A DNA stretch of 64,000 nucleotides from Cafeteria roenbergensis. Lineage: Eukaryota; Sar; Bigyra; Bicosoecida; Cafeteriaceae. The notes under the pieces are model-generated. The model was not told the origin of the DNA. It did no database searches and saw only the letters and a program-made list of their open reading frames with translations. Numbering within the stretch: the stretch's first letter is position 1; each line of letters starts with the position of its first letter. The stretch is taken from the NCBI GenBank assembly GCA_008330645.1, contig VLTN01000010.1, forward strand, positions 310,001-374,000. The letters run 5' to 3'. Positions 31,602-63,100 of the stretch are shown piece after piece. Made by a program: the position numbers and the translations under genes.

Positions 31602-34149
31602 ATGAGCGACAGCGGAGAGCGGTCGCTCGCCAACCCAATGGTTGCCGCCCGCAAAGCGCCGGAGCGCGCCCCGCCCCGCCCCGGAACTGAGGACACCGGC
31701 CCGCCGCGGCTGAATCCGCTGGTCAGCGCGAGCGCCGGCCGCGACAGCGGCGGGCAAAGCGCGGCAGCGGTCCCGCGGCACTCGCTAGCGACAGTGCCAC
31801 TGCAGCGAGCCCCACCCTCGCTGCCCCGCACCACCACCAACCCGCTCGCCGCGGCTGCGCGCGCCGAGACAGAAGCCCCGGGCGGGTCCGACGCGATCAG
31901 TCGCTCTCGCTCGGAAGGACGTCCGCGGACTCGGCGCGCCAACCCGGGCTTTGGCCGGCTGCAGGTCACAGTGCCCCGGGGCAGCATCGCCTCGGATGCC
32001 GGAGCCGACGGCACCCCCGGGGGCGGAGCCCATGCTGGCAGCCCCGCGCCGCAGTCTGGGCGGCTGAGGCGGCGCAGCACGAAGCAGCGGCGGACGAACA
32101 ACGTCAAGAGCTTCTCCGCGCTGAGCCGCAGCGGCACCACGCAGAACCAGGCCCTCCCCTCGGTGTACGCGCGGAGCCGGCGAGTGCGAGTGAAGCGGAT
32201 GAAGCGGCGCGCGTTCTTCCTGCTCGAGACCGGGAAGGCGTCCACCACCTCAACGAAGCGCATTCGGGGGCTGATCATCCTCACTGTGCTGCTCAGCGTC
32301 ACCGGCGCCATGGTGGAGACGACGGTGGTTGAGGTGGCGGACCCCACGTTCCGGTATGCGCTCTACATGCTGGGGTTCACCTCGGAGATGCTGGCGGCGG
32401 CCATGATGCTGGTTGACCTGGTGATGCGGACTTGGGCCTGCACCGTGGACTCGAGGCTGTCAAAGCACCGGACCTTCGTCCCGGGCGTCTGGAAGTCCAA
32501 CGACAGGCCGGGGTGCTCGGTGTCGTGCGGCCCGCCGCCCGGAGCGCTCGAGGTCGACTCGCTCGGGCACGTGGTGAACCCGGACGAGCCGCACCAGGAC
32601 GAGAGGCCGCGGCGCTGCGGCGTCAAGTGCATCGGCCGCTTGCAGTACACGGTGCGCCCGTGGAACATCTTGGAGCTCAGCACCTTTGTCCCCGTGCTCA
32701 TCTGGGTGGTGTCCGCGGGGAGCTTGCCCGTGTTCGGCCTGTCGCAGTGGGCGCACGGGCTGCGTTTTCTGCGCCTGCTGCGAGTGGTGGTGCTTCGGCG
32801 CATGTTCGCCGGGGTCCGGCTGCTCTTCAAAGTGGTGACGAGCAAGGCGAGGGAGCTCTCCAGCGCTCTGATGATGGCGCTCATCGTGTCCATCATCGTC
32901 GGGTCAGCGGTGTACGAGCTGGAGCGCCCGCGGGCGGCCAAGACGCCGTTCCGCACTCTCTTCGACGGCGCGTACTGGTCGACCATCTCGTGAGCCGCCG
33001 CGCGCCTGTTGCGGCCAGCCCCCGCTGCGCACTGTGCGCCTGCTGTGCCCGTTCGGCGCGAGCCTGGTCCTCCAGCACCAGCAAAACTGCTCTGTGTATC
33101 CCCGCCGCGTTTCTGCCCCCCCCCCTATCTTTTGTCTCCCGCAACGCCTCGGCGCGCCCGGCGCTGTTCTCCCCACCACCACAGTCTCTCGTGAGTTTCG
33201 GTTCGCGCTCGCGCCCGGCAGCGATTTGCACCGGCTTCGGCTGCAGGCGTCGCTCGGGCCAGCCGTTTCTCCGCCGCTCTCCTTGTTCCGGCATCCCGCA
33301 GAACCGTGAGGCGGCGCGAAGCAGGGGTGCTCCCCACCCCGACGCCCCGCTGCTTCGCCAGACGAGTCCAGCTGGGCGGGCTCGTGCAGCGAGCCCACTG
33401 GCGCACAATCAGCAATTGCGATGGCTCTCGAATTTTGTCCGCCGTTGACTGCCTCGCAGGTGGGCTTCGGGGACGTTGCTCCTCAGCGGCTGATGGGTCG
33501 AATCGTAACCACTGCTGCTGTGGCTGTGCTGGTGGGCGTGTTCACTCTGCCCGCCGGAGTGATCTCCTCCGGGTTCGTGGAGCTGACTGACCGTGCGAGG
33601 CACGCCAGGCGGGAGGCTGTTGCGAAAATGGAACGGGTGTACCGGCGCCTGCAAGCGCGCACGCTGATGCGTCGCTGGCACGTGCTCTCGGACGCGGCGC
33701 GGCTCTCGCAAGAGGCCCGGTCGCGCTCCAAGCGCCTGATGAGCTTCAAGTCGTCCACTCGCCGCCTCTCGGTGGCAGGAAACGTGCTCTCGCGGCAGGG
33801 CGATGGGGCGGACAGCGCTGACAGCGTTGTTGCGCCCACGTCCATCTCCAGAGCGTCGTCTGCAGGGTTTGAGGGCGGTTTCGGCGCTGTGCCCGTGCCG
33901 GCAATGACTCCGCGCGCAATGCGAATGACGCTGTCGCGAACCGAGGAGCTGCGAAGCCTGTGCGCTCTGGACGACGAGCTGGAGAGCACGGTGGGCGCAA
34001 TGAACCGCGCGCAGCTGAGGCGGCTCGTGGCGGGGCTCGACGTGCTGCGTCGGTGCGGCGGCAACGACGCCGTTCTGTTCGAGACGCTGGGCAAGCACAT
34101 CAACGCCGAGGAACAGCTCATCGTGGGTGCAGAGGCCGGCGGCCGCTAG
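31602..34149 (+). CDS. voltage-gated potassium channel with selectivity filter split over micro-exons
   Basis: Four exons: 31602-32989, 33185-33190, 33302-33305, 33460-34149 (introns 195, 111, 154 nt; all GTGAG...AG), 695 aa. The first exon has a disordered basic N-terminus, S1 (about 221-243), S2, a Cys-containing S2-S3 insert, S3 (WNILELSTFVPVLIWVV), an Arg-rich S4 (LRFLRLLRVVVLRRMF, about 387-402), S5, and the pore helix FRTLFDGAYWSTI. The last exon begins VGFGD and continues with S6 and a cytosolic helical tail. Exon 1 ends in phase 2 and the last exon starts in phase 0, so they cannot be joined directly. The two micro-exons add 10 nt and give TISLSTVGFGD, the correct K+ filter with canonical spacing. 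Kv-type function is strongly supported; subfamily is not clear. Confidence 0.88.
33185..33190 (+). other. 6-nt micro-exon of the K+ channel
   Basis: TCTCTC lies between an acceptor (CCACCACAG after a long pyrimidine tract) and a strong GTGAGT donor. Its length keeps phase 2. With the flanking exons it encodes Leu-Ser of the pore-helix end. The acceptor is CACAG, not the usual CGCAG. Confidence 0.75.
33302..33305 (+). other. 4-nt micro-exon of the K+ channel encoding the filter threonine
   Basis: AACC lies between CATCCCGCAG and GTGAGG. It shifts phase 2 to phase 0, exactly what the last exon needs, and supplies the Thr of TVGFGD. Confidence 0.78.
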
Positions 34150-48848: not shown

Positions 48849-50032
48849 ATGGCTTGGGAGGGCCGTGCAATCGGCGATGCGGTGTCTCCCTGGACCTCCC
48901 GCGCCGAGGGCCGGCGCGCCTCGCTGCTCGGCACGGAGAGCGTGCAGAGTCTGGGGGTGGAGGAGGCGCTGCAGATCCGGGCCCAAGACGGCAAGGCGGC
49001 CGTGGTGCAGGCCGCAGCGCCGCCAAGCAGCGACTCTCAGCCACAATCGCGCCCCGGCAGCGCCAGCGGGGAGCCAGCGGCACAGAGCCGTCAAGGCTCG
49101 CGGAGCAGGCCGCCGAGCGGCAGCGGCCTGCGGTCCGCGGGGCGCGCCGGGGCCTCGAGCTCGAGCGCGCTAGGCGCAGTTGGCGCCCCCAGGCCGCTGC
49201 GCACCACGGTGGGCGCGGCCGAGTCTATGCTTCGATCGGGCGGCTCGGTCCGCACGCTGGACGCGCGCCAAGCCGCCCGCAGCGCCCTCATGGCGGACTC
49301 CGGGCGCAGGGGCCTGGTCAACGTGCAGCTCACAGGGCGGCGAGCCAAGGCCAGCTTCGGCATCGGGCCCTTCGCGCAGGAGGCGTCCGCTCGCCTCGCC
49401 ACTCGCTCCGTCGCGTCCTTGGGCTCCGCGGGCTCCTCTGCGAGCCTGCCGCTCGGAGCGTCGGCGTCGACCCGGTCCGGGCCGGTAGGGTCAAGCGCGG
49501 CGGCCAGAGCGCGCGCGGCGGCGTCGCTCAAGCGTCGCTCAGCCGAGCAACGCGCGCACGCGCTCGCACCGTCCGCACTCACCGTGACCTCGGCCCGCTC
49601 TGGGCAGGACGCCACGCTGCGCGGGGGGACCACCGGCAGCGGCAGCGCTGTCAGGGAGTCCGCCTCCCGCGGCTCCGCGGAGCTCACCCCTGCGCAGGCA
49701 GCCTCGCGCAGGCTGGAGGGCCACTACAAGCTGGTCACCCGGTCCAAGGAGGCCCTTCGCAGCACTGCCGAGTCGCGCCACGCCGGCAGCGGCTTCTCGT
49801 GGATGCTGAGGGAGCTGACGTCGGCGGCAGAGCTGGCAGCAAGCGGCAGTGGCTCCGGCAGAGGCACGGGGAGGAGCGCAGGGGCTGCGGCTGCGGGCGG
49901 TCGTGGCATGGCCGTGTTTCGCGGCAGAGCTCGCGACGGCGGGCAGGCAAGCGACTCGGGCGAATCGCGTCTGGGCTCCGCTGCGGGGACTGGGGCCCCC
50001 TTACAGGGAAACGACCGCCGCAGCGGCAGGGG

Positions 50033-50064
<32 letters not shown>

Positions 50065-53000
50065 TTGGCGGGGGCGGGGGCGGGGGCGGTGCGATCGGCC
50101 CCGGCGAGGGCATTGGGGGCATCGCTCTGGCAGCCGCCGGCGGAAGCCCGCGCCGCACCGCGAGCGCTCAGCGCCGGAAGAGGCAAACCCGCGGCGCCGA
50201 CGGCGGAGCGGACGCAGGAGGGGCTGGCGCCGACGCGGCGGCTCCAGGCGCGCCCCCTCACGACGCGACGGCGGCGGGGGAGGAGTCTGCCTCATCAAGG
50301 CCTCGCGGCGGGGCAGCCGCCTCTGGCGGGGCAGCCGCCTCTGGCGGGGCAGCCGCCTCTGGCGGGGCAGCCGCCTCTGGCGGGGCAGCCGCCTCTGGCG
50401 GGGCAGCCGCCTCTGGCGGGGCAGCCGCCTCTGGCGGCGCCGCCCCGGCAAGCCTGCCGGAGAGTCCGCCGCAGTCGCCCGTGATGGAGCTCTCGCCAAC
50501 GTTTCCCGGCAGAGCGGCCGCCTTCCACGGCTCTGCCGGCTCGCTGACGCGCCACGATGGCGGGGAGACGAAGGGCCCCGACGCCGATGCTGCGCCGAGG
50601 GCGGCGGCCTCGCCCATCGTGCGGCCGCGAACGGCGCCCCGGGGGGGAAGCGGGGCCGGCGTGAGACTCGGGAGCGCTGGCGGCCGCGGGCCCGACGGGG
50701 CCGCGCGGACGGGCGGCGAGGTGGTGTTGCTCCGGCCCAGCACGCCCTCCGGGCTCACGTCCGCGGTGGTGGCCATCTCTGCCGCTTCCAGCAGCCCGCT
50801 GCTGCGGCCGGGCTCGCTCTCCCGGCGGCAGAGCAGTGGCCCGGTTGAGGTGCCTTCCATGCGCCTGTTGGCCAGCGACGGCGCTGACGCCCTCGCGCGC
50901 CGGCGGCTCGACCAGACGAGGCGGCGGCGGCCTGTTTCGGCCGCAGCAGCGCCCCGGCTGCGGCAGGCGGAAGCCGCGGCTCGGCTGCTGCAGGGCAGGC
51001 CGGCACAGGGGGTGGACCGCGGGCCGGCCCCGGAGGAGACCGAGGCCGCCCAGGAGCTGGCGCGTCGCTCGCGATCACTGGCCCATCAGGTGACGATGGA
51101 GCGGAGGGGCGGCGCCCAGGCCGTTCCGCCCAGGCCGGACTCTGCCGTGAGCCGGGGGGGGCGCTCCATGGCCGCGTTGTCGGCCGGTGGCTCTGCTGAG
51201 GCAAGCGGGTTCACCAGCGGGATCGGCAGGCAGCTGCTGGTGAAGACAGGGTCCGACGGCCTGGCGGGGTGGGCGCCCGAAGACTCGCCGGCGAACGCCG
51301 ACACTCCCGCGGGGCCGCCCGTGACGATGCTTGGCCGCAGCGCCGCTGGGCTCGGAGGGTCAGGACCTATCAGCCCCTTCAGCAGGGGGGGCAACTCCGG
51401 CGCGCAAGACAGAGACGTCGTCGCTGCGACCAGCGGCCGGTCGGGGCGCAGGGCGACGGGCGACTGGGGCTCCGGCCTTCCGGGCGTGCCGGAGGGGGCG
51501 GAGTCCTCGTCCGGCATCGGCGCCTCGTCGCTGCCCGGCACGCCGTGGGGAGAGCTGCCGGCGGCGACTGGCGGGGATGGCGCGCGCCTCAGCTCTGCCG
51601 GCGGACGGGGCGCGTCGCGAGGCAGCCTGGTCCGGCGACCGAACACGTCGGGGGGCAGGCCGCGGGCATCCGGCTCCGGCAGCAGGCCCTATCTTCACGT
51701 TCAGGACGACGCGGCGGCGATGGATGCGGACATTACGACGCCCACGCGCCGGCTCGCCGCCCGGTCCTCCGGAGGCTCGCCCGAGCGGCACTCCAGCTCC
51801 GTGGTGGTGCTGTGGCGCCAGCACGCGAGCTCCGCCTCGTCGGCCGACCACGGCGCGGGGGGTGGCGGGTCCGGGGCGACGGACGCCCGCGTCGGGCTCA
51901 GCACTGGCTGGCAGGTGGCCGCCTCTGAGGCCCAGGATGCGCGCGCAGGGGCCTCGGCAGTGGCCCTGCCGCAGTCGCCCACGGGCAGCTCGGCGTCGCC
52001 CTCGCGCCGAGTGGAGCGACGGCAGTCCTCGGCCCCGTCCGTCGCGTCGACGTCGCTGGCAGAACAGGCAAGGGCCGGGAAGTTCGGCAGGGACACTGCG
52101 GCGCTGTCGACTGACAGGCAGGGGGGCACGTTCTGGCGCGAACCCAACGCTGCGGAGAGCCACGGCGGGGGCTCCGCCGCCTCCGGCCCGCTGCTGAGCG
52201 CCACGGCGCGGTCCGTGGAGGCGGGCACCGAGCAAGAGGGCGCGGGCTCAGTGGCCAGCCTCCCGCGACGGGGGCGGAGGGCCAGCGTGGGCTTGCTGCC
52301 CGATGACGTGTCGCATGTGATCGCCCGCAGCGTGATGGATCAGGGGAGCACCGACGCGGACGCCGACGCGGACGCGGACGCCGAGTCTGCCCGGCGCGGA
52401 GACGCGGCCGCGCTTGCAGGGCACCACCGCGCGGTCAGGCGGGGCTCCCTGCAGAGTGAGGGGGCCGCCTCGTCGGGGACTGCCTCGTCGGTGACGCCCT
52501 TCAAGGGGCTGGGCCGGGGCGGCGCAGCTGGCGCCGGCGCGCCCTCGAAGCACTCGGGGCTTGCGGTGGTGCTGGGCAAGGCGAGCGGGGGCGGGGCCCG
52601 CGCTCCTGCCAGCCCCGTTGCGTCGGAGCAGGGCTCCGTCGTCGGAGCGGCGTCCCGCCGGCCGCCACGGCCCTTCGCCGCTGGCGGCGGGGCGGAGCTT
52701 CCGCCGGACCTGGCGAAGCAGGGCCGCCTTGCGAGCGGAGCGAGCCTCGGCAGCGGCAGCGGTGCCCCCGGCGGGAGCGTGGCGTCCTCCGGCGTGCGAG
52801 GGGTTGCCTCTCTGTCCGGCACGGCTGGGAGGCGCATGCATGTCACCGTGGCCGTCGGCGCCGAGGCGCAGGCGGAGGCCTTACGGTCCGCGGGCGCCGT
52901 AGAAGGCCGGCTGGTCGTGGCGCAGTCCCCGTCCGCCGCCGCATCGCGCCGCAGCCAGCTGCTGCAGTCGCGCGCTTCGCCCCATGGCGGCCCCGCGGCG

Positions 53001-56000
53001 GCGCCCACGGCGGGCTTTGCTGCCCCGTGGGACGCGCCAAGGCCTGGCTCTCGCGGCTCTGCCGCGCCCTCACACGGGGCTCGGACCGGCAGGCTTCCGG
53101 CAATGGGAGGCCGATCCCCCTCCGGTGCCGCGGCCGCTGCCGCCGCCGCCGCAGCGGCCATGGCGCCAACGAGGGTGCCGCGCGAGTTTGCGCGGTTTTC
53201 GGACTCGCCGCTGCCCCCGACGGATGCCGGACTGATCGGCTCTGCCACCTACGACGCCACGGCCAGGCGATGGCGGGTGCGCGTGTGGCCGTCGGACGCG
53301 CCCGTCGCCACGCGGGCGGAGCTCGCGACGCTGCTTCGCTGGATGCGGTTCATGCTCGTGGCCATTCGCGCGCAGCACTCGCGCCGAATGCTCAGTCGAG
53401 CGCTTGGCGCTGCGATCCGGGCCCATGAGGAGCCCGACGGCAGGGTTGCCCGCCGCGTGGCGCATGCCGAGGCGGAGACGGATCTCGCCTCTCGCCTCAC
53501 CTCGCCCAGGTCAAAGCTGGGGTCGGAGCCAGGCAGCGCCGCGTCAAGCCGCCGCGGGTCGGTGTCAGGCCGGAGCGGCCGCTCCCGCGACAGGCCGGCA
53601 CGGGGCGGCGGGGCGGAGGACGCAACGGCGCAGGCCAGGGCGCGGCGTGCAAGCGTGACGGACGTCGCATCAGCGGCCATGGGCATTGGCGACGCCAGCG
53701 CCATTGCCGAGCTCACAGCAGCCGCGTCGACGGCGGCCACCTCGCGTCAAGCGGCCCGCACGGCAGCTGAAGCTGCGGACTCTGCGCTGTGGGCGGCCGC
53801 CGCGCGGCTCTACCGCATGGGCCTCCCGTTCTGCCTGCAGCTTCGGAAGCAGCTTGACGGGGTGAGCGTGGGTCCGGGCGAGGGCGGCGGCGGCGGCGGC
53901 GGCCGAGGCCTCCAAGGCGGCGTCGCAGGCCGCATGGCGCTGGCCAACGCTGCTGCGCCGATCACGGCTGGCGCCTCGTCCCTGCGGGCTGCAATCGGAA
54001 GGTCGAGCGCCGGCAGGGCTGCGACGCCGGCGGAGCGGGCGGCAAGGGCGTTTCGGGAGGTCGACGAGAAGGCCACCGGAAAGGATGCCTCGGCCTCTGT
54101 GGATGCTCTGGCCGCCGCGGCTCGCAACGAGGCCGCCATCGGCGGGGCGAGCAGCGATGCAGCGGGCGGCAGCGCCGCTGCCATCCCCGCCCCACTTCGT
54201 CCGCGCCCCCTGTCACAGCCGGCAGTCCCGGAGTGGGCGTCCGCTGACGCGGCGCTTTGCATGGCCCCGCGCGGCGTGCTCGCCCCGGTCATCGCCGCAG
54301 CGGCGCCACGCGTGGTGCGCGACAGCGCGCGTCTCATGTCCATCTGCTGGCACGAAGTGTGTCGCCGCGCGGAGGTGTCCGACCCCGACAGGGGCGCGCT
54401 GCTCCGCCGCGTCTGGAACGACGGCAGAGCCGTGAGAGCCCGCCTGCTTCGCGAGGAGCAGCGCGAGGAGGCCGTCCTCGGCAAGGTGCTGGACCGGGTG
54501 ACGGACGTGCTGGAGCAGGCGTTGGAGGAGGAGAGGGCGGCCGACGCTGTGCTCTCGCGGCTGCAGGGCCACGCGAAGAGGAGCCTGGCAGAGCTCAAGG
54601 CCGTGGAGAGGGTGGTGTTCCCGCTGGGAAGGTCGCCCGAGGCGGAGGCAGCGGCGCGGCGGCGGCTTCGAGCCGAGGCCCGCCGCACCCGCCGGCTGGC
54701 GCAACGGGCGCAGTCCGGCGGGTTTGGCACGGACGACTTTGGCGGGTCCAGCGACGAGGAGGCGAGCGGTGCTGCTCAGAACTCGGTCAATTTCCGCTCC
54801 ACTGCGAAGCTGATGGCTGCACTTGCAGCGGGGGGCGGCGGCGGCATGATGACGATGAAGTCGTCGGCAGCGCTCATCGCTCCGCCGCAAGGCGCCGAGT
54901 CAGACTCAGAGTACGACTCCGAATACGATTCCGAGTACGACTCTGAGTACGACTCCGAGTACGACTCCGAGTCGGATTCGGAGGCTTCGGCAGGTGGGAG
55001 AAGGGCACGCCGTCGGCGCCAGGCTCGGCGCCTGGGCAAGGCTGGCGCCCGAGGGGACAGCAGCGAAGGCGACAGCGACGGCGAGCGCGGAGGCGAGGCG
55101 GGCGCGCGGCGGCGCCGAAGGCGCAAGGGCCATCGCCGGCGCGGGGGGCGCCGCGGCGAGGAGGGGGACGAGAGCGATGACGCCGGAGGCGGCGGGGGGC
55201 GGCGCCGAGGCCGGCGGAGCCGGGGCAGGTCAAGCCGCGGCCGCGGCCGTCGCCGTCGCGGCAGCCGCTCGGCCGGCAGCGGGAGCGAGGTCAGCGACTC
55301 CGAGGACAGCAGCGGGCATGCCTCAGGGCGCCGGAGGGGGAGTCGCCGCCGCCGGGATCGGCGGGGTCGGTCGGACTCTGGTCGCTATGACAGCGAGTCC
55401 GGCTCTGACGGGGCGTCAAGCGGCGGGTCGAGGCGCGGAGGCGGCGGCCGCGGCGGCAGGTCCAGGCGGTCGCGGCGGGAGGAGCGGCGGCGGCGGCGGC
55501 AGAGCGGCGGCAGTGGGCGCGGCGGCGAAGCAGACAGCGGTTCGAGCAGCGACAGCGGCGGGGGGCACAGCTCGAGAGGTCGCGGCGGGCGGGGCCGATC
55601 GCGGCGTCGCGGCTCGCGGCGGCACCGCGGCGACGGCAGCGGGTCGGACTGGGGTTCCGGCGGCGAGGAGGAGGACGAGGAGGTGCAGGTCAGCGAGTCG
55701 GACGGCCAGGGCGGCCGGCGGGTGGTCACGGTGACGAGGCGGCGGAGGCGGGGCCGGGGCCGGGGCCGGGGCCGGAGCCGACGTGGCGATGACAGCGCCA
55801 GCGCCAGCGACGGTGACGACGGCGGCGGTGGAAGGCGGCGGCGTGGCAGGCGGCATCGCCGCGGGTCCGGAGACGACGACGGGAGCGACAGCGGCGGGTC
55901 GCTGCTCTCTGAGAGCGGGGGCCTGCTGGGGGACGCGGGCGAAGAAGGCGGGCGCAGGGGCCGGGGTCGGGGCAAGCGCAGGGGCGGAAAGGGCGGGGGT

Positions 56001-56741
56001 CGCCGGCGGCGAGGAAAGTCGGGGACGGGCGAGGCCGGAGGCGAGTCGGGCCAGGACGAGGACGAAGAGGGCCCCAGCAGAGCCCTGAACCAGCTGCTCG
56101 GCGCGGCGGGGAGCGAGGGCGGCGAGGAGAGCCCAGGCAAGGGCAGGGGGTCCCGCAGTGGCGGCCGCTCCGGCCGTGGCGCAGGCGGCGAGGACGGGGA
56201 CGAGGACGGCGATTGGAGCGGGGACGGGGCTCCAGACGGCGACGCGGGGGCGAAGGGGCAGCGGGGGCATCGCGGGAAGAGGGGGGCGAAGAAGAAGGGC
56301 CACGGCGGCGGGGCTGCGGCCGCCGGAGACGATGACTCTGACGGCGCTGCGGGCGCTCGGCGCCCGGAGACGAAGAGGAGCAAGGCCAAGCGCCCTGGGC
56401 TGTCCAAGGAGGCGAAGCGGCCGGCTGCAATCCTGGCGGGGCGCCGAATGGCGGACCTGAGCCCTGAGGACCTGCGGACGGTGGCGGCGCTCGCGCTGGA
56501 GGAGGTGCCGCACATGAGCGCGGAGGACCTGCTTGGCGAAGCCGCGGCGCTGCGTGCGTCCGTCAGCAAAATGGAGCAGAAGACGGCCGACGCCAAGAGC
56601 GGCAAGCTCAAGGAGCAGCTGCTCCACAGGCGCAGCCTCATCGCCCAGGGCAAGACTCGCGAAGCGGGAGTTGAGCACGCGAGCGCGCAGACGCCAGCGA
56701 GGTGGGCGGAAGCGGACCGGGAGGCAGCCCCGGCTCCCTGA
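48849..56741 (+). CDS. giant 2,630 aa mostly disordered protein with a helical core, possibly axonemal
   Basis: One uninterrupted frame of 7.9 kb, the longest in the window, without introns. Residues 1-1430 are Ser/Gly/Ala/Arg-rich and disordered, with several tandem repeats. An ordered part begins near residue 1440 (FARFSDSPLPPTDAG, RWRVRVWPSD, ATLLRWMRFMLVAIRAQHSRRML) and continues with YRMGLPFCLQLRKQL. Around residue 1820 the segment SICWHEVCRRAEVSDPDRGALLRRVWND resembles the 'QCFDELIRQVxxxCxERGLLLxRVRDE' core of axonemal dynein light chain p28/DNALI1-type domains, followed by a long coiled coil. Then come YDSE repeats and 450 residues of Arg/Gly/Ser/Asp repeats. The C-terminus is helical (DLSPEDLRTVAALALEEV). 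The axonemal link is an inference from one motif. Composition, not sequence, drives the tail. Confidence 0.7.
50033..50064 (+). repeat. AGC trinucleotide run encoding poly-Ser in giant protein
   Basis: About ten AGC codons followed directly by a poly-Gly stretch (GGCGGGGGC repeats). Confidence 0.88.
50310..50435 (+). repeat. 18-bp minisatellite, seven identical copies
   Basis: Unit GGGGCAGCCGCCTCTGGC encodes Gly-Gly-Ala-Ala-Ala-Ser. Seven copies are identical at every base, followed by a degenerate partial copy. Perfect identity indicates recent expansion or homogenisation and likely length variation among individuals. Confidence 0.95.
52350..52385 (+). repeat. GAC-GCG/GCC repeat encoding (Asp-Ala)n
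   Basis: Six-base units with one or two third-base changes encode alternating Asp and Ala in the giant protein. Confidence 0.8.
54899..54980 (+). repeat. 12-bp degenerate repeat encoding Tyr-Asp-Ser-Glu units
   Basis: Five to six units of GAGTACGACTCC. Units differ only at third codon positions (GAA/GAG, GAT/GAC, TCC/TCT), so the protein repeat is conserved while DNA drifts. The spaced Ser/Tyr in acid context look like casein kinase 2 targets. Confidence 0.88.
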
Positions 56742-57140: not shown

Positions 57141-60100
57141 CTATCCCCGGGCTGGCGGGTGTGCCGGGGCCTCCACGACCCCGTTGGAGGTGCTGGCTTG
57201 CCACGTGTCGTGCTCAAACCCCGCGCGGTCGCCCAGCAGGGACGGCAAGGACGGAAGCGACGCGTTGAGCGAGGACACCTCGGCCCGAGTCACGTGCGCC
57301 GGCTCGGCGGTCGCAGTGGCATGGGCGGCTGCTGCTCTGCCAGCACCTCGGCTGTCACCCCGCGGGAGCCGGGGCACGCTGCTGTGGGCCATTGCCGCGC
57401 TGCCGTGCACCGCTGCCGCCAGGGCAGCGCGGGAGGCGGCTGCGGTGCCCAGCGCGGCCACCTGGCGAGCGTGCTTCACCGTGTCATGCGAGACTTGCGT
57501 GGGGGTGGGGGGGCCAGCAGCGCCGCCATGGTCCTGGCCGGCGGCGTCGTCGGTGAGGCGCCTTGCCAGCTCGAGGGCGGTCCGTTTCCAGAACTCCAGC
57601 TCCTGCGCCGCAGCGAGGCCCGCATCGTGGGTAGGGTACGCCGAAGCCGTGTGGGGGGGCATGGCACTGGCGCTCGGCGCGGAGCCAGCGGCCCCTGCAG
57701 CGCTGCGGGGCGGAATGGCCGGAGGGTGCGAGGGCGGGTCGAAGTTGGCCGGACTCGCTGCCCGCCCCGGGGAGTTGGCGCTGGCGAAGCCCGACTGCGA
57801 GGCGTGGCCAAAGCCGACGGGGGTGCCCCCCGACCGGACCGAGGACGCCCTCGGGGGGCGGACGGAGGGCGGGCCCATGCGCAGCGGCAGCGCCGGCGCG
57901 CTCGACACCGCAGTGGTGCTCGCGGGGATGACTGGGGCAGCAGCCTCGTCCCGGTGGGTCGCCGCCCAGCGCACCAGGGCGTCGCCCACCTCCTGGGGGG
58001 TCACGCTGGTCACGGGCGCCATGCTGGCGGGAACGGCCCCGGCAGCCGACATGGCCGTGGTGGCGGGGTTGCGGCGCACGGGCAGGCCCCGCGGGGGGCG
58101 GGACGCCGCCGGCGCGGACCATCCCATCGCAGCGGCCCCGAAGCTGGACGAGACAGCCGACATGCCTGAGCTGCCTGTGACGGTGCTGGGTGGCCTGCCG
58201 GGAACCCAGCGCTGCCGGGAGGCTGCTTCGCCGCTGCTTCCCTTGCCGTGAGAGGAGCCGTCGCCACTGTGAGAGGGTCCGTGGCTGCCGCGGCTGTCCC
58301 TGTGTGACCCCACGCCGGGCACCCCGGCGCTCACTGACGTGCCTTGAACCGAGCCCGTGGCTGCCATGTCGTGCCCCGTGGACCCGCCCCCGTCGGTGGA
58401 GGCGGAGGCCTTGCTCTCAGTGGTCTGCACGAACACCGCCCCGGTCTCGCGCATTGCGTCGGCGGCGGCCGATGCAACTGCGGCCATTGTGGACGAGTCC
58501 TCCGTGTCGGCGAACAGCTTGGTGGTGTGGATCTTCACCGGGATGTCTACGACGGACACGCCGCCCGTGGGGGTCTGCACGGCGATTGGCATCGTCGCGG
58601 ACGACACCGACTCGATCACGCTCGCGCCAATCGCAGCCGCAGCGGCGACGGCCGGCGACGGCCCCGGCATCGCCGCTGCGGCCCCCACAGAGTCTGCCGC
58701 TGCCGCAGCGGCAACGTGGCCGGCAGGCTGCCCCGAGCTGGCAAGGGCGGCAGTGCGGCCGCCCACTTCAGGGGCTCCGGTGTGAACGTCGAGGGCCGGG
58801 TTAACGGGGCCAGATGGCTCTGCCGGACGGAGCGACACGGACGAGTACATTCGCGAGGTCGAGCCGTCCCCGGAGGTGACCGACGGGCGGCTGGCAGCGT
58901 AGCCGGTCGTCGATGCGCCCCCGCCGGCCGGAGGGCTCTGGGCCGGGCCCGCCGCGGCAGCGTCCTTGGCCAGCAGAGCCTCAGAGCCCGGCGTGCCCCT
59001 CGCGGCCGCGGCGGCCACTGCGTGGCCGAGCGCCGCTCGCTTGGCAGACGGAGCAGCCTCCCTCGACCCTGTCGTGCCAGAGCCGGCGGTGGAGCCGTCG
59101 TCTCGCCCGCGCTTCCGCGACGCGTCCGGGGGCGCCGCAAGCAGGCCCGTCATGCCCATGCTGGTGATGGCCGCCGCTGCTGCTGCCGCCGCCGCGCTGG
59201 ATGTCGGGCTGGTGGATCCTGTGCTTGGGGGCAGAGCCGCGTGGCCTGGGTTGGCGACGACGTCCGTTGCGCCGCGAACAGGGTGCGGCTGCGCCTCCTC
59301 CTCCTGCTGCTGTCTCTGCAGCTGGGGCTTCTGGTGCTGTCCGGAAGACGAGGAGGAGGAGGACGTTGACGGGTCGAACTGGGACAATCCTCGCGACGCT
59401 GCGCATGATCCGCTCGTCGTCGGCGGCTCAGGCGTGTCCCAGCTTGCTTGCGCGGGCGCAGGTGCGATGGCGGCAGTGGTGGTCGCCGCAGCGGCCATCA
59501 CGGGAGGAGTCGATGTGATGGCGTTGGCCGCGACCGATGCGGACGCCGTCGTCGTGGAAGCGGTGAAGGGGTGCGAGAACACCATGCCGGCGGACCTGGC
59601 CGCGGTCATGAGGGCGGACGTGATGGAGGAGGCCGGGTTGGCGCCCGCGGAGGTGGCGGCCATGCTGGGCTGGCTGATGGGAACGAGGTTGGCAGTGTTC
59701 GGGTTCTCCGTGTTGAACACGATGGTGGCCTGCGGGACGACCCGAGTGATGGCGATTTGGGAGACGTCTCCGCCCGAGGAGTGGTGGTCGGACGTCGTGG
59801 AGCGTTGGCCGGCGGAGGAGTTGTTGGTGTGCACCGAAATCGCGCTCTGGCCAGGCGGGGCCGTGACTGGGTTGCCGCTAGCGTCAGTGACGGCCACGTT
59901 TGCGGTGATGGCCGGGTTTTGGGCGGGCAAGCCCACGGGAAGCCCCTCGGAGGTGCCAGATACCGAGCCGATCGCGGAGTGCTCTCCGACGGCGCAGGCT
60001 GGCCCAGCCTCGTCGCCGGAGGACACCCTGGTCATGTGGTGGATCGGCCAGCCGCCTGATGCGGGCGCCGCGGACGCGGGCGGTCTCGCCGCCCTTGCTC

Positions 60101-63100
60101 CAGCCATGGACGTGGCCACGCCGGACACTGCCGCCGCCAGCGCATCCAGGCCGGACGCTCCAGGCGCCCCTCCGAGGGCATGCGCCACGTAGGCGTCGGC
60201 CATGAAGGCCGCCCGCGTGGAAGCAGGCTGTGCCACAGAGGTGGGCTGGTGCTGCTGGTGCGGCTGCGGGTGCTGCTGCGGCGGCTGCGGCTGCTGTTGC
60301 TGCTGCTGTTGGTGCGGTGCGAACTGCTCCCGCTGCGCTGCGCTCGTGGGCGCGACAGCCGGCTTCAGGCCAGCGGCGCTCGCCGCCGCAGCTTGCTGCT
60401 GTCGCATCCGAGCCGACTCGTCAGGGACGTCAAACTGCAGGGAGCCGTCGTCGCCGCTGGAGCTGGGAATGACAGGAACGGCGCCAAAGGCGGCGTCTCT
60501 CATTGCGTAGTTGGCCCGGGAGGAGTCGATGGAGACGACTGTGGCAGCGTCGCCGGCCAAGCTCGGGATGACGGGCACGACCGCCGTGGCGGGGCCAAGC
60601 GTGCCCGGTGCGGTCATTGCGCTCATCTGGTGGGACACAGCTGCGTTGGACGTGGCCCGGACGGAGTCAGACTGCGAGCAGGGGGACCCCGTGCCGTCGA
60701 CGAAGGGGGAAGGCGGGGGCCTGCCGCCGTAGGACGCTGAAGGGAAGTTGCTGATCGCCGAGGAGGAGAGGAGCACCGGGATGGACACCGAGGGCGTGAC
60801 GGACATCCCGCCCTGGAAGGCGGACAGCATGGGGCTGGCTGGAGCGGCGTCGTTGGACGTGCTGATGGCGGAGGGGCGAGGGCCCTTGCCCGAGGTCCCG
60901 AAGCGGGAGCCGTACGTCGGCTCGGCGGTCCCAGAGCTGCCCTGGGAGGCGGAGCCAATGCCCCTGCCAGGCCCGCGGGCTGCGGGGAATTGGCCGATTC
61001 CCGGGATGCCCGAGGAAGCGGGGGCGGGCGGGGCCTTCCCAGCCGCGCGCTGCGGCGAAGGGGCCATGCCGCCCGCAACGGGGCCAATCATGGGCATGGT
61101 TGCGGGGTTGCCCGCGCTCTCGCGCTTGACGGAGCTGCGGCCCGCGGACGCAGCGCTGCCCAAGCCGAGGGAGAGGACAGAGTCGCCCCCGCCAACGCTC
61201 ATTGCATCGCCTGAGCTGGGGATGCCGCCCTGAGGCAAGGGGTGGCGGAGCTGCGCCTGCCGCTGCTGGGTGTGCTGGGCGGCATGAGCTGCGCCGGGCC
61301 GGGAGAGCTCCCTCTGGGGGGCATGCATCGAGCCCGAGGAGTAGCCGGCGTCGTCTCCGCGGCGGCCAGCGGCATACGGGCCATGCGCAGACGCCGACAA
61401 GCCGTGCGGCGACGCAACGGGAGGAGGCCGCTCAAGGCCGTCGCGGGGCGCGTGGCCGACCCCGCCGGCCATCGAGGACTGGTAGGAGCCGATGCTGACG
61501 CCCCGGTGCAGCACCGTGAGCACCCCGGCAGCCTGCTCGTCGGATGCGGACCCGGGGCCGGGGCCGCCGCCTGCGCCGCCGCCGCCGCCGTTGGCGCGAG
61601 CGGGCGTCGCCCCGTAGTGGGACCCGGTGGACTTGGGGCCAAGCGCCGATGCGATGGCCATGTGGTGCCCCATGCTGAGGTCGGGGGGGCCGGAGTCGTG
61701 GCCCGCCGCCGGCTCGCCGATGGCGATGTCGACGGCAGCGGAGAGCGCCCCAAGCGAGCCGACCTCCATGGCGGTGCCCGGGGAGCGTGGCGGCTCCCTG
61801 TGGCGGCCGCCGTGGGGCTGGTAGTGGCTGGAGTACCCGTGCCCCGGGTGGGAGCGCTGGGGCTGCGGCCCGACAGCAGCGTAGGGGGAGGGGTTGTACG
61901 GCGCAGCGGGGGGCACCACAGCTCGAGCGGGAGGCATCCCCCCGGGCCGGCCGGGGTAGTGCACCTGCCGGCTCGTGTGCGGAGAGTGGGATGCGTCGGT
62001 GCGGTAGCCTGCCGACCCGGCCATCATGGACGACGGGTGGCCGAGCTGGTTGCCGAAGGCGTCCGCGCGTCCGGCGGGCCCGTCGCGCTGGCCGAAGGGC
62101 GGCACCAGAGACCCGCCGGCGCCGCTGCCTCCCGCGGATGCAAGGTGGTGGGAAGACATGAGCTGGGAGCCGTTCGATCCGGAGCTGGAGTAGGAGGGCG
62201 TCGTGTGCGTGGTGGGAACCGCAATAGCGGGGCGGGAGGGGTATTGCAGCGGGGGTGCCCCTGGCCCAGCCCCAGCGGGACTGGAGGAGGCGTAGCGCGC
62301 CGACTGCCCGTGCGCATAGCTCATATGGGCAGAGTGAGGCGGCATCTGGTGCTGCAGCAAGGCGGAGGGCGGCGCCTGCTGGTGGGCGTGCGGCGGAGGG
62401 TGAGCAGCAGCAGCGTGTCCCCCAACGAACATGCCGCCTCCGTTCGTGCCGCTGATGCTGGGCCCCGCGCCGTGCGCGCTCCACCCCGCGTCCAAGGCCG
62501 CGTCCCGTCCTGCGGCGGCTGCGCGGCGCCCAGAGCGCCTGCTGCCGCCGGTGGCGGGACTGGCGTCGCCGCTGACTGCGCTGGAGCCAGGGGCCGCGCC
62601 AAGCGTTGCGCCTGCTTCATCGGCGGCGACGCCCCTCCACGCCTTGCCAGCGCTTCGGGCCGCCTTGCCGGGAAGCCGCTTCTTTGCCTCCTGCACCTTG
62701 AGCGCGCGCTGGCCCGACTTGTTCGTCCGACGGACCACCTTGCCAAGGTCCTCGAACCCGTTCTTGTGGAAGTACTCGTGCTCGTAGATGACCCAGTCGG
62801 GGCTGTCCGGGTCGGCAACGCGAGAAAACCTGCGGGGAGGAGTGGGAATCAAACAACAAACGCCGCTCGCAGCATCGCAGCGACGGAACGACCGCATCTC
62901 GCAACGAGGCCAGCTGCAAAGGGCTGCCGGCGAATTCGCAATGCCGGCGCAGGTCCGTCCTCTGGGGCCAGCCACACCGCAGTCCAAGGGCAAGGCACGC
63001 CCAGCGGTGCCAAGCCCAGCGCTTCGCTCGGGCGGCCGAGCCCCGCTCCGCTGCTTCGCTCACGCGTAAAAGTTGAGCTGCGACTCGAGCAGGAGCCCAA

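Follow-up and report, generated by a model that had tools for sequence, protein, structure and literature searches.

Exons of a single nucleotide are reported from land plants, in APC11 and VPS55, and rice has one of 4 nt as well as adjacent exons of 5 and 12 nt (PMC8831610); a second paper describes a 1-nt exon in the Fusarium cytochrome P450 gene CYP621A (PMC12940212). With 1-nt exons documented in both, the statement in the initial annotation of the present locus that 4 nt is the extreme lower limit was too strong. For protists, the genome paper of Creolimax includes a search for micro-exons of 3-15 nt (PMC4739763).

Here we describe a candidate pair of consecutive micro-exons in a predicted K+ channel gene of Cafeteria roenbergensis, located in a 64,000-nt stretch of DNA referred to below as the window. 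The pair resembles the plant micro-exons in its canonical sites, in being needed for the reading frame and a conserved protein, in the occurrence of an adjacent pair, and in escaping correct annotation, from which plant micro-exons are often absent (PMC8831610). The plant cases come from land plants and were proven by RNA-seq and RT-PCR, whereas the present pair belongs to a heterotrophic stramenopile, falls within a channel filter and is known from DNA. The CYP621A exon was found by the same logic, starting from a mismatch of phase and the spacing of motifs and taking the length from a relative that lacks introns, but unlike the Cafeteria pair it is a single 1-nt exon in a fungal P450 and was confirmed by reads (PMC12940212). 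In a collection of open-access papers, covered mostly through titles and abstracts, we found no report of a comparable case in stramenopiles, protists, K+ channel filters or Cafeteria.

If the gene is spliced as proposed, two consecutive micro-exons totaling 10 nt would lie where a K+ channel is under the tightest constraint, in a free-living stramenopile, and the end of exon 1 would have been preserved despite large divergence of the protein. Such a gene would offer a compact case for how the spliceosome copes with a 4-nt exon, and points to tiny exons as a source of error in the functional core of published protist proteins.

Gene structure and the predicted micro-exons

Exon 1 ends within the pore helix, in phase 2 and 10 nt before the filter, and the last exon opens after CGCAG at position 33460 with GTG GGC TTC GGG GAC, encoding VGFGD. 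A direct splice between the two, held to be impossible in the initial annotation, is indeed out of frame and runs into a stop about ten codons on. The phase of exon 1 and the placement of TCTCTC and AACC between acceptor and donor signals were likewise described correctly, and the 470-nt interval holds, with at least 40 nt kept at each end, exactly the two AG-N(1-30)-GTRAG occurrences that had been counted. All elements assigned to 33181-33196 are present as well, with a start one base too late, since CACAG begins at 33180. The features are as follows.

31602..32989, forward strand: exon 1, encoding the N-terminus, voltage sensor, S5 and pore helix to YWSTI plus TC (phase 2); from the open reading frame, with a PF00520 match at 32637-32987
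32990..33184, forward strand: predicted intron 1, 195 nt, GTGAGC...CACAG; from splice scores, with FNF27_03541 fitting the same donor and acceptor
33185..33190, forward strand: candidate micro-exon A, TCTCTC, 6 nt; from the combination scan, and required to reproduce FNF27_03541
33191..33301, forward strand: predicted intron 2, 111 nt, GTGAGT...CGCAG; from splice scores and the reconstruction of FNF27_03541
33302..33305, forward strand: candidate micro-exon B, AACC, 4 nt; from the scan and splice scores, with FNF27_03541 fitting the acceptor and not the donor
33306..33459, forward strand: predicted intron 3, 154 nt, GTGAGG...CGCAG, at the filter between T and VGxGD; from splice scores and the filter introns of paralogues
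33460..34149, forward strand: last exon, encoding the VGFGD filter, S6 and the C-terminus, with stop TAG; the exon-3-type ORFs P0032, P0035, P0036 and P0126 begin at the equivalent residue
33302..33326, forward strand: alternative 25-nt exon B with donor GTGCTC at 33327; reproduces FNF27_03541 and adds 7 residues in the filter

With both micro-exons included, translation of the joined exons gives a frame open to the stop at 34149 and a protein of 695 residues; the joined mRNA reads ATC TCT CTC TCA ACC GTG GGC (I-S-L-S-T-V-G) and the pore YWSTI-SLST-VGFGD. The junction expected from inclusion of both exons (6 + 4 nt) is ATCTCTCTCTCAACCGTGGGC, that expected from skipping of the 6-nt exon is ATCTCAACCGTGGGC, and that of the published version with a 25-nt exon B is ATCTCTCTCTCAACCGTGAGGCGGCGCGAAGCAGGGGTGGGC. 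Taking as micro-exons those spliceosomal, internal and coding exons of at most 15 nt, we find that A and B both lie between AG and GT splice sites like those used elsewhere in this genome and that both are required for the reading frame and the spacing of the protein.

We propose, with a probability of roughly 0.87, that the filter region of this gene is encoded by two constitutive micro-exons of 6 and 4 nt that are spliced by intron definition. The 10 nt encoding S-L-S-T, where the pore helix closes and the filter opens, would thus be divided over two exons, and three short canonical GTGAG...CAG introns would be excised. Because the introns are short and a 4-nt exon would hardly fit factors on both of its sides, their removal would most likely proceed by intron definition, one after another.

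Uniqueness of the 10-nt solution and strength of the splice signals

A combination scan of the 470-nt interval, allowing introns of at least 40 nt, GTRAG donors and up to three pieces, returned TCTCTC plus AACC as the only combination totaling 10 nt. Among totals of up to 60 nt in at most two pieces, the frame is also kept with GTRAG donors by the 4-nt AACC on its own and by two solutions that include a 43-nt piece (totals of 43 and 49 nt) and would add more than 10 residues. Once any GT donor is admitted, 10 nt can be assembled without a stop from up to three pieces in ten ways, and TCTCTC plus AACC is the only one among them that reads [ST]-hydrophobic-[ST]-T; it is still the sole such combination after addition of GC donors. 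Tried and rejected was a single 10-nt micro-exon, for which the sole GT-AG candidate holds a stop and the two GC-donor candidates encode unsuitable peptides. Acceptors upstream of 33460 for the last exon were also discarded, as the codon before GTGGGC would then be predicted to encode Q, not T.

The frequency of such solutions by chance was assessed, with up to two micro-exons allowed, in dinucleotide shuffles and in 2,664 control windows, which are overlapping 470-nt pieces taken from both strands of the 64-kb window irrespective of where splice sites lie. When donors had to be GTRAG, 234 of 20,000 shuffles and 60 of the 2,664 control windows contained a stop-free solution of 10 nt with any peptide, and none of either contained one with the [ST]-hydrophobic-[ST]-T motif (0/20,000 and 0/2,664). 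With any GT donor, solutions of any peptide were common (3,678/4,000 shuffles; 2,321/2,664 control windows), and solutions carrying the motif were found in 20 of 4,000 shuffles and 12 of 2,664 control windows. As the motif was picked with K+ channels in mind, these figures test the fit to a K+ pore and not to any protein. It is the combination of strong donors with the pore motif that gives the fit its strength. The original argument that the combined fit is improbable by chance holds for GTRAG donors with the motif. The pattern AG-N1..10-GTRAG is by itself not rare, with 80 occurrences on both strands of the whole window.

Splice signals were scored with a donor and acceptor matrix built from 12 introns of paralogous genes. 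These introns measure 116-407 nt and have GTGAG (9/12) or GTAAG (3/12) donors and CAG acceptors throughout (12/12); the matrix is biased towards GTRAG, since the paralogue donors were assigned to GTRAG sites (five by rule, seven by eye). Under this matrix, no donor of the interval scores higher than those of the proposed splicing (33191, 8.5; 33306, 7.9; 32990, 7.2). The acceptor at 33460 scores 7.5 and those at 33302 and 33185 score 4.6 and 3.7, compared with 5.7 for one at 33247 that the model leaves unused. Introns 1 and 2 thus have low-scoring acceptors, given a leave-one-out range of 3.3-12.9 for the 12 paralogues, 11 of which reach at least 7.3. Inside the paralogue introns (2,287 nt), AG-N1..30-GTRAG occurs once (7 nt, in L021), versus twice in the 470 nt examined here.

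As a background for micro-exons, 26 junctions in kinesin genes were surveyed, of which 6 are clear introns, 3 are best explained as read-through and 17 are unclear. The clear introns (L031, L035, the first of L037, the first of L042, L043 and L045), chosen partly for their GTGAG donors, are all of the GTGAG...CAG type. Micro-exon candidates passing the filter were found at 0 of the 26 junctions, a survey without power on the genome-wide frequency.

Pore fit and the published protein

In a 223-residue piece without the first helices, the version with two micro-exons scores highest of three (PF00520, 73.1 bits; PF07885, 47.3 bits), followed by the version without the 6-nt exon (66.2 and 36.9 bits) and the version with a 25-nt exon B (59.8 and 34.0 bits). 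Taking a PF00520 match together with T-x-G-[YF]-G-D as the mark of a voltage-gated K+ channel, we find both in this piece, the filter reading TVGFGD. The end of the voltage sensor, S5, pore and S6 align with KCNQ (Kv7) channels such as KCNQ4 (7byl); from the pore helix through the filter the alignment is gap-free, and 12 paralogues keep the same spacing. Identity to KCNQ5-like proteins is 31-32% over about half of the query. The product is expected from these matches to be a voltage-gated, KCNQ/Kv-like, K+-selective channel.

The best match in the protein search is FNF27_03541, a hypothetical protein of C. roenbergensis, which is reproduced by reading the window with TCTCTC and a 25-nt exon at 33302-33326, bar one residue of 503. 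Compared at the protein level, it agrees with five of the six splice sites of the two-micro-exon model and places VRRREAG between S-L-S-T and VGFGD. The one-residue difference indicates that FNF27_03541 derives from another strain or allele, and the protein implies the same DNA around the micro-exons there.

Should this protein be correct, exon B would be 25 nt long and the channel would carry a seven-residue insertion, a reading that we regard as improbable. It accounts for FNF27_03541 almost to the residue, and the annotation pipeline, BRAKER with HISAT splice sites detected in E4-10P transcripts, drew on transcript evidence (PMC6972860). However, its donor GTGCTC scores -3.9, compared with 7.9 for GTGAGG under the GTRAG-leaning matrix, VRRREAG would disrupt a filter spacing common to 12 of 12 paralogues, and it gives the lowest Pfam scores of the three versions. 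The 25-nt exon B is probably an annotation error that leaves the published protein wrong in its filter. AUGUSTUS is not known to represent exons below about 5-6 nt, a floor on exon size that would account for the choice of 25 nt.

Usual skipping of the 6-nt exon, with exon 1 joined to AACC, would yield a filter region two residues shorter and appears very improbable. The frame would stay intact, and AACC alone is the sole shorter GTRAG solution, but the spacing would fall two residues below that of KCNQ4 and 12 of 12 paralogues, both Pfam scores drop, and TCTCTC carries the best-scoring donor of the interval. We also consider it improbable that the locus holds a conserved splice switch on conductance, in which skipping of the 6 nt would remove two pore residues and use of the downstream donor would add seven. 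If it did, non-conducting or dominant-negative subunits would arise from splicing alone.

A separate observation concerns the N-terminus. FNF27_03541 begins 199 residues into the window ORF, leaving 31602-32198 outside the annotated protein (503 versus 702 residues under the same splicing). The full N-terminus is present in the metagenomic relative P0002, and the annotated start is probably too late.

Paralogues, metagenomic relatives and intron history

Sixteen paralogue regions were compared, 14 of them chosen for channel matches that break or start at the pore and two (L023 and L024) as unbroken comparisons, hence not a random sample. A filter intron is present in 12 of the 16, at the place of intron 3 or up to 4 nt downstream. 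Four of these (L014, L018, L021 and L022) have it in phase 0 before V; seven (L009, L010, L012, L016, L017, L019 and L020) have it in phase 1 within the codon for V, and L013 has it in phase 1 one codon further on, in that for G. The residues that would be supplied here by the micro-exons sit in exon 1 of all 12, and joining their two exons gives a full gap-free pore with no micro-exon (12/12). The pore is unbroken in L023 and L024 and apparently split further upstream in L015, and a GxGD filter was not found in the fetched region of L011. Intron 3 thus lies where these paralogues have theirs, and introns 1 and 2 have no counterpart among them; the latter look to have been gained in the lineage of this gene, which takes fewer events than loss elsewhere.

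An origin of the introns as Introners or by tandem duplication was rejected, as there is no second copy and the introns resemble one another no more than shuffled sequences do; region 32940-33560 matches itself alone in the genome, in a search that leaves simple repeats and high-frequency words aside.

Among metagenomic relatives, with protein identities ranging from 56 to 97%, exon-1 ORFs are 87% (P0002), 62% (P0033) and 56% (P0034) identical to this protein, and all three end YWSTIS or YWSTIT followed by a stop. An S or T codon and then a stop fits a TC|GTRA or AC|GTRA donor at the same phase-2 site, and P0002 starts and ends at the residues corresponding to exon 1. ORFs of the exon-3 type begin at [V/M]G[FY]GD in 4 of 4 cases, with V in P0035, P0036 and P0126 and M in P0032, these starts being choices of the gene caller; in P0032 the M probably reflects this valine codon taken for an initiation codon. 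P0034 and P0036 probably lie on one contig, as 11,191 bases are listed for both. At the level of these ORFs the short exon 1 is conserved across the three relatives, and the early end that they keep suggests that the missing 10 nt are probably conserved too. Introns 1 and 2 would then have been gained before the split from the relatives with 56-62% protein identity in the compared region. Scans of viral contigs (P0033, P0034, P0035, P0126) and of genome contigs (P0033) did not find the DNA of a relative, and three protein searches of a 90%-clustered database whose clusters conceal their individual members, two of them scoring the best 8,000 candidates, found no protein recognisable as transcript-derived for this gene.

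That the locus is a pseudogene or an assembly artefact seems to us a very slim prospect. Long open frames are weak evidence in DNA of 72% GC; against this, third-position GC is high in exon 1 (0.89) and the last exon (0.80), relatives of 56-97% protein identity keep the same exon end, and FNF27_03541 points to the same micro-exon surroundings in another strain or allele. Apart from the two-micro-exon splicing put forward in the initial annotation, the analysis yielded none that restores frame, length and residues together, and paralogues, relatives and five of the six splice sites fitted by FNF27_03541 back it; judged from these comparisons, the structure is real and most likely used, and the pair is probably mis-annotated and conserved.

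Two minor observations concern the wider family and the window. The filter is cut by an intron in L009, L010, L012-L014, L016-L022 and, as predicted, at 33306-33459, at three positions within 4 nt, a pattern suggestive of recurrent gain at a single site or of an intron sliding around it. Elsewhere in the window, long open frames lie on opposite strands at 48849-56741 (forward strand, 2,630 residues) and 57141-62993 (reverse strand, 1,950 residues); at 74% GC they may be empty.
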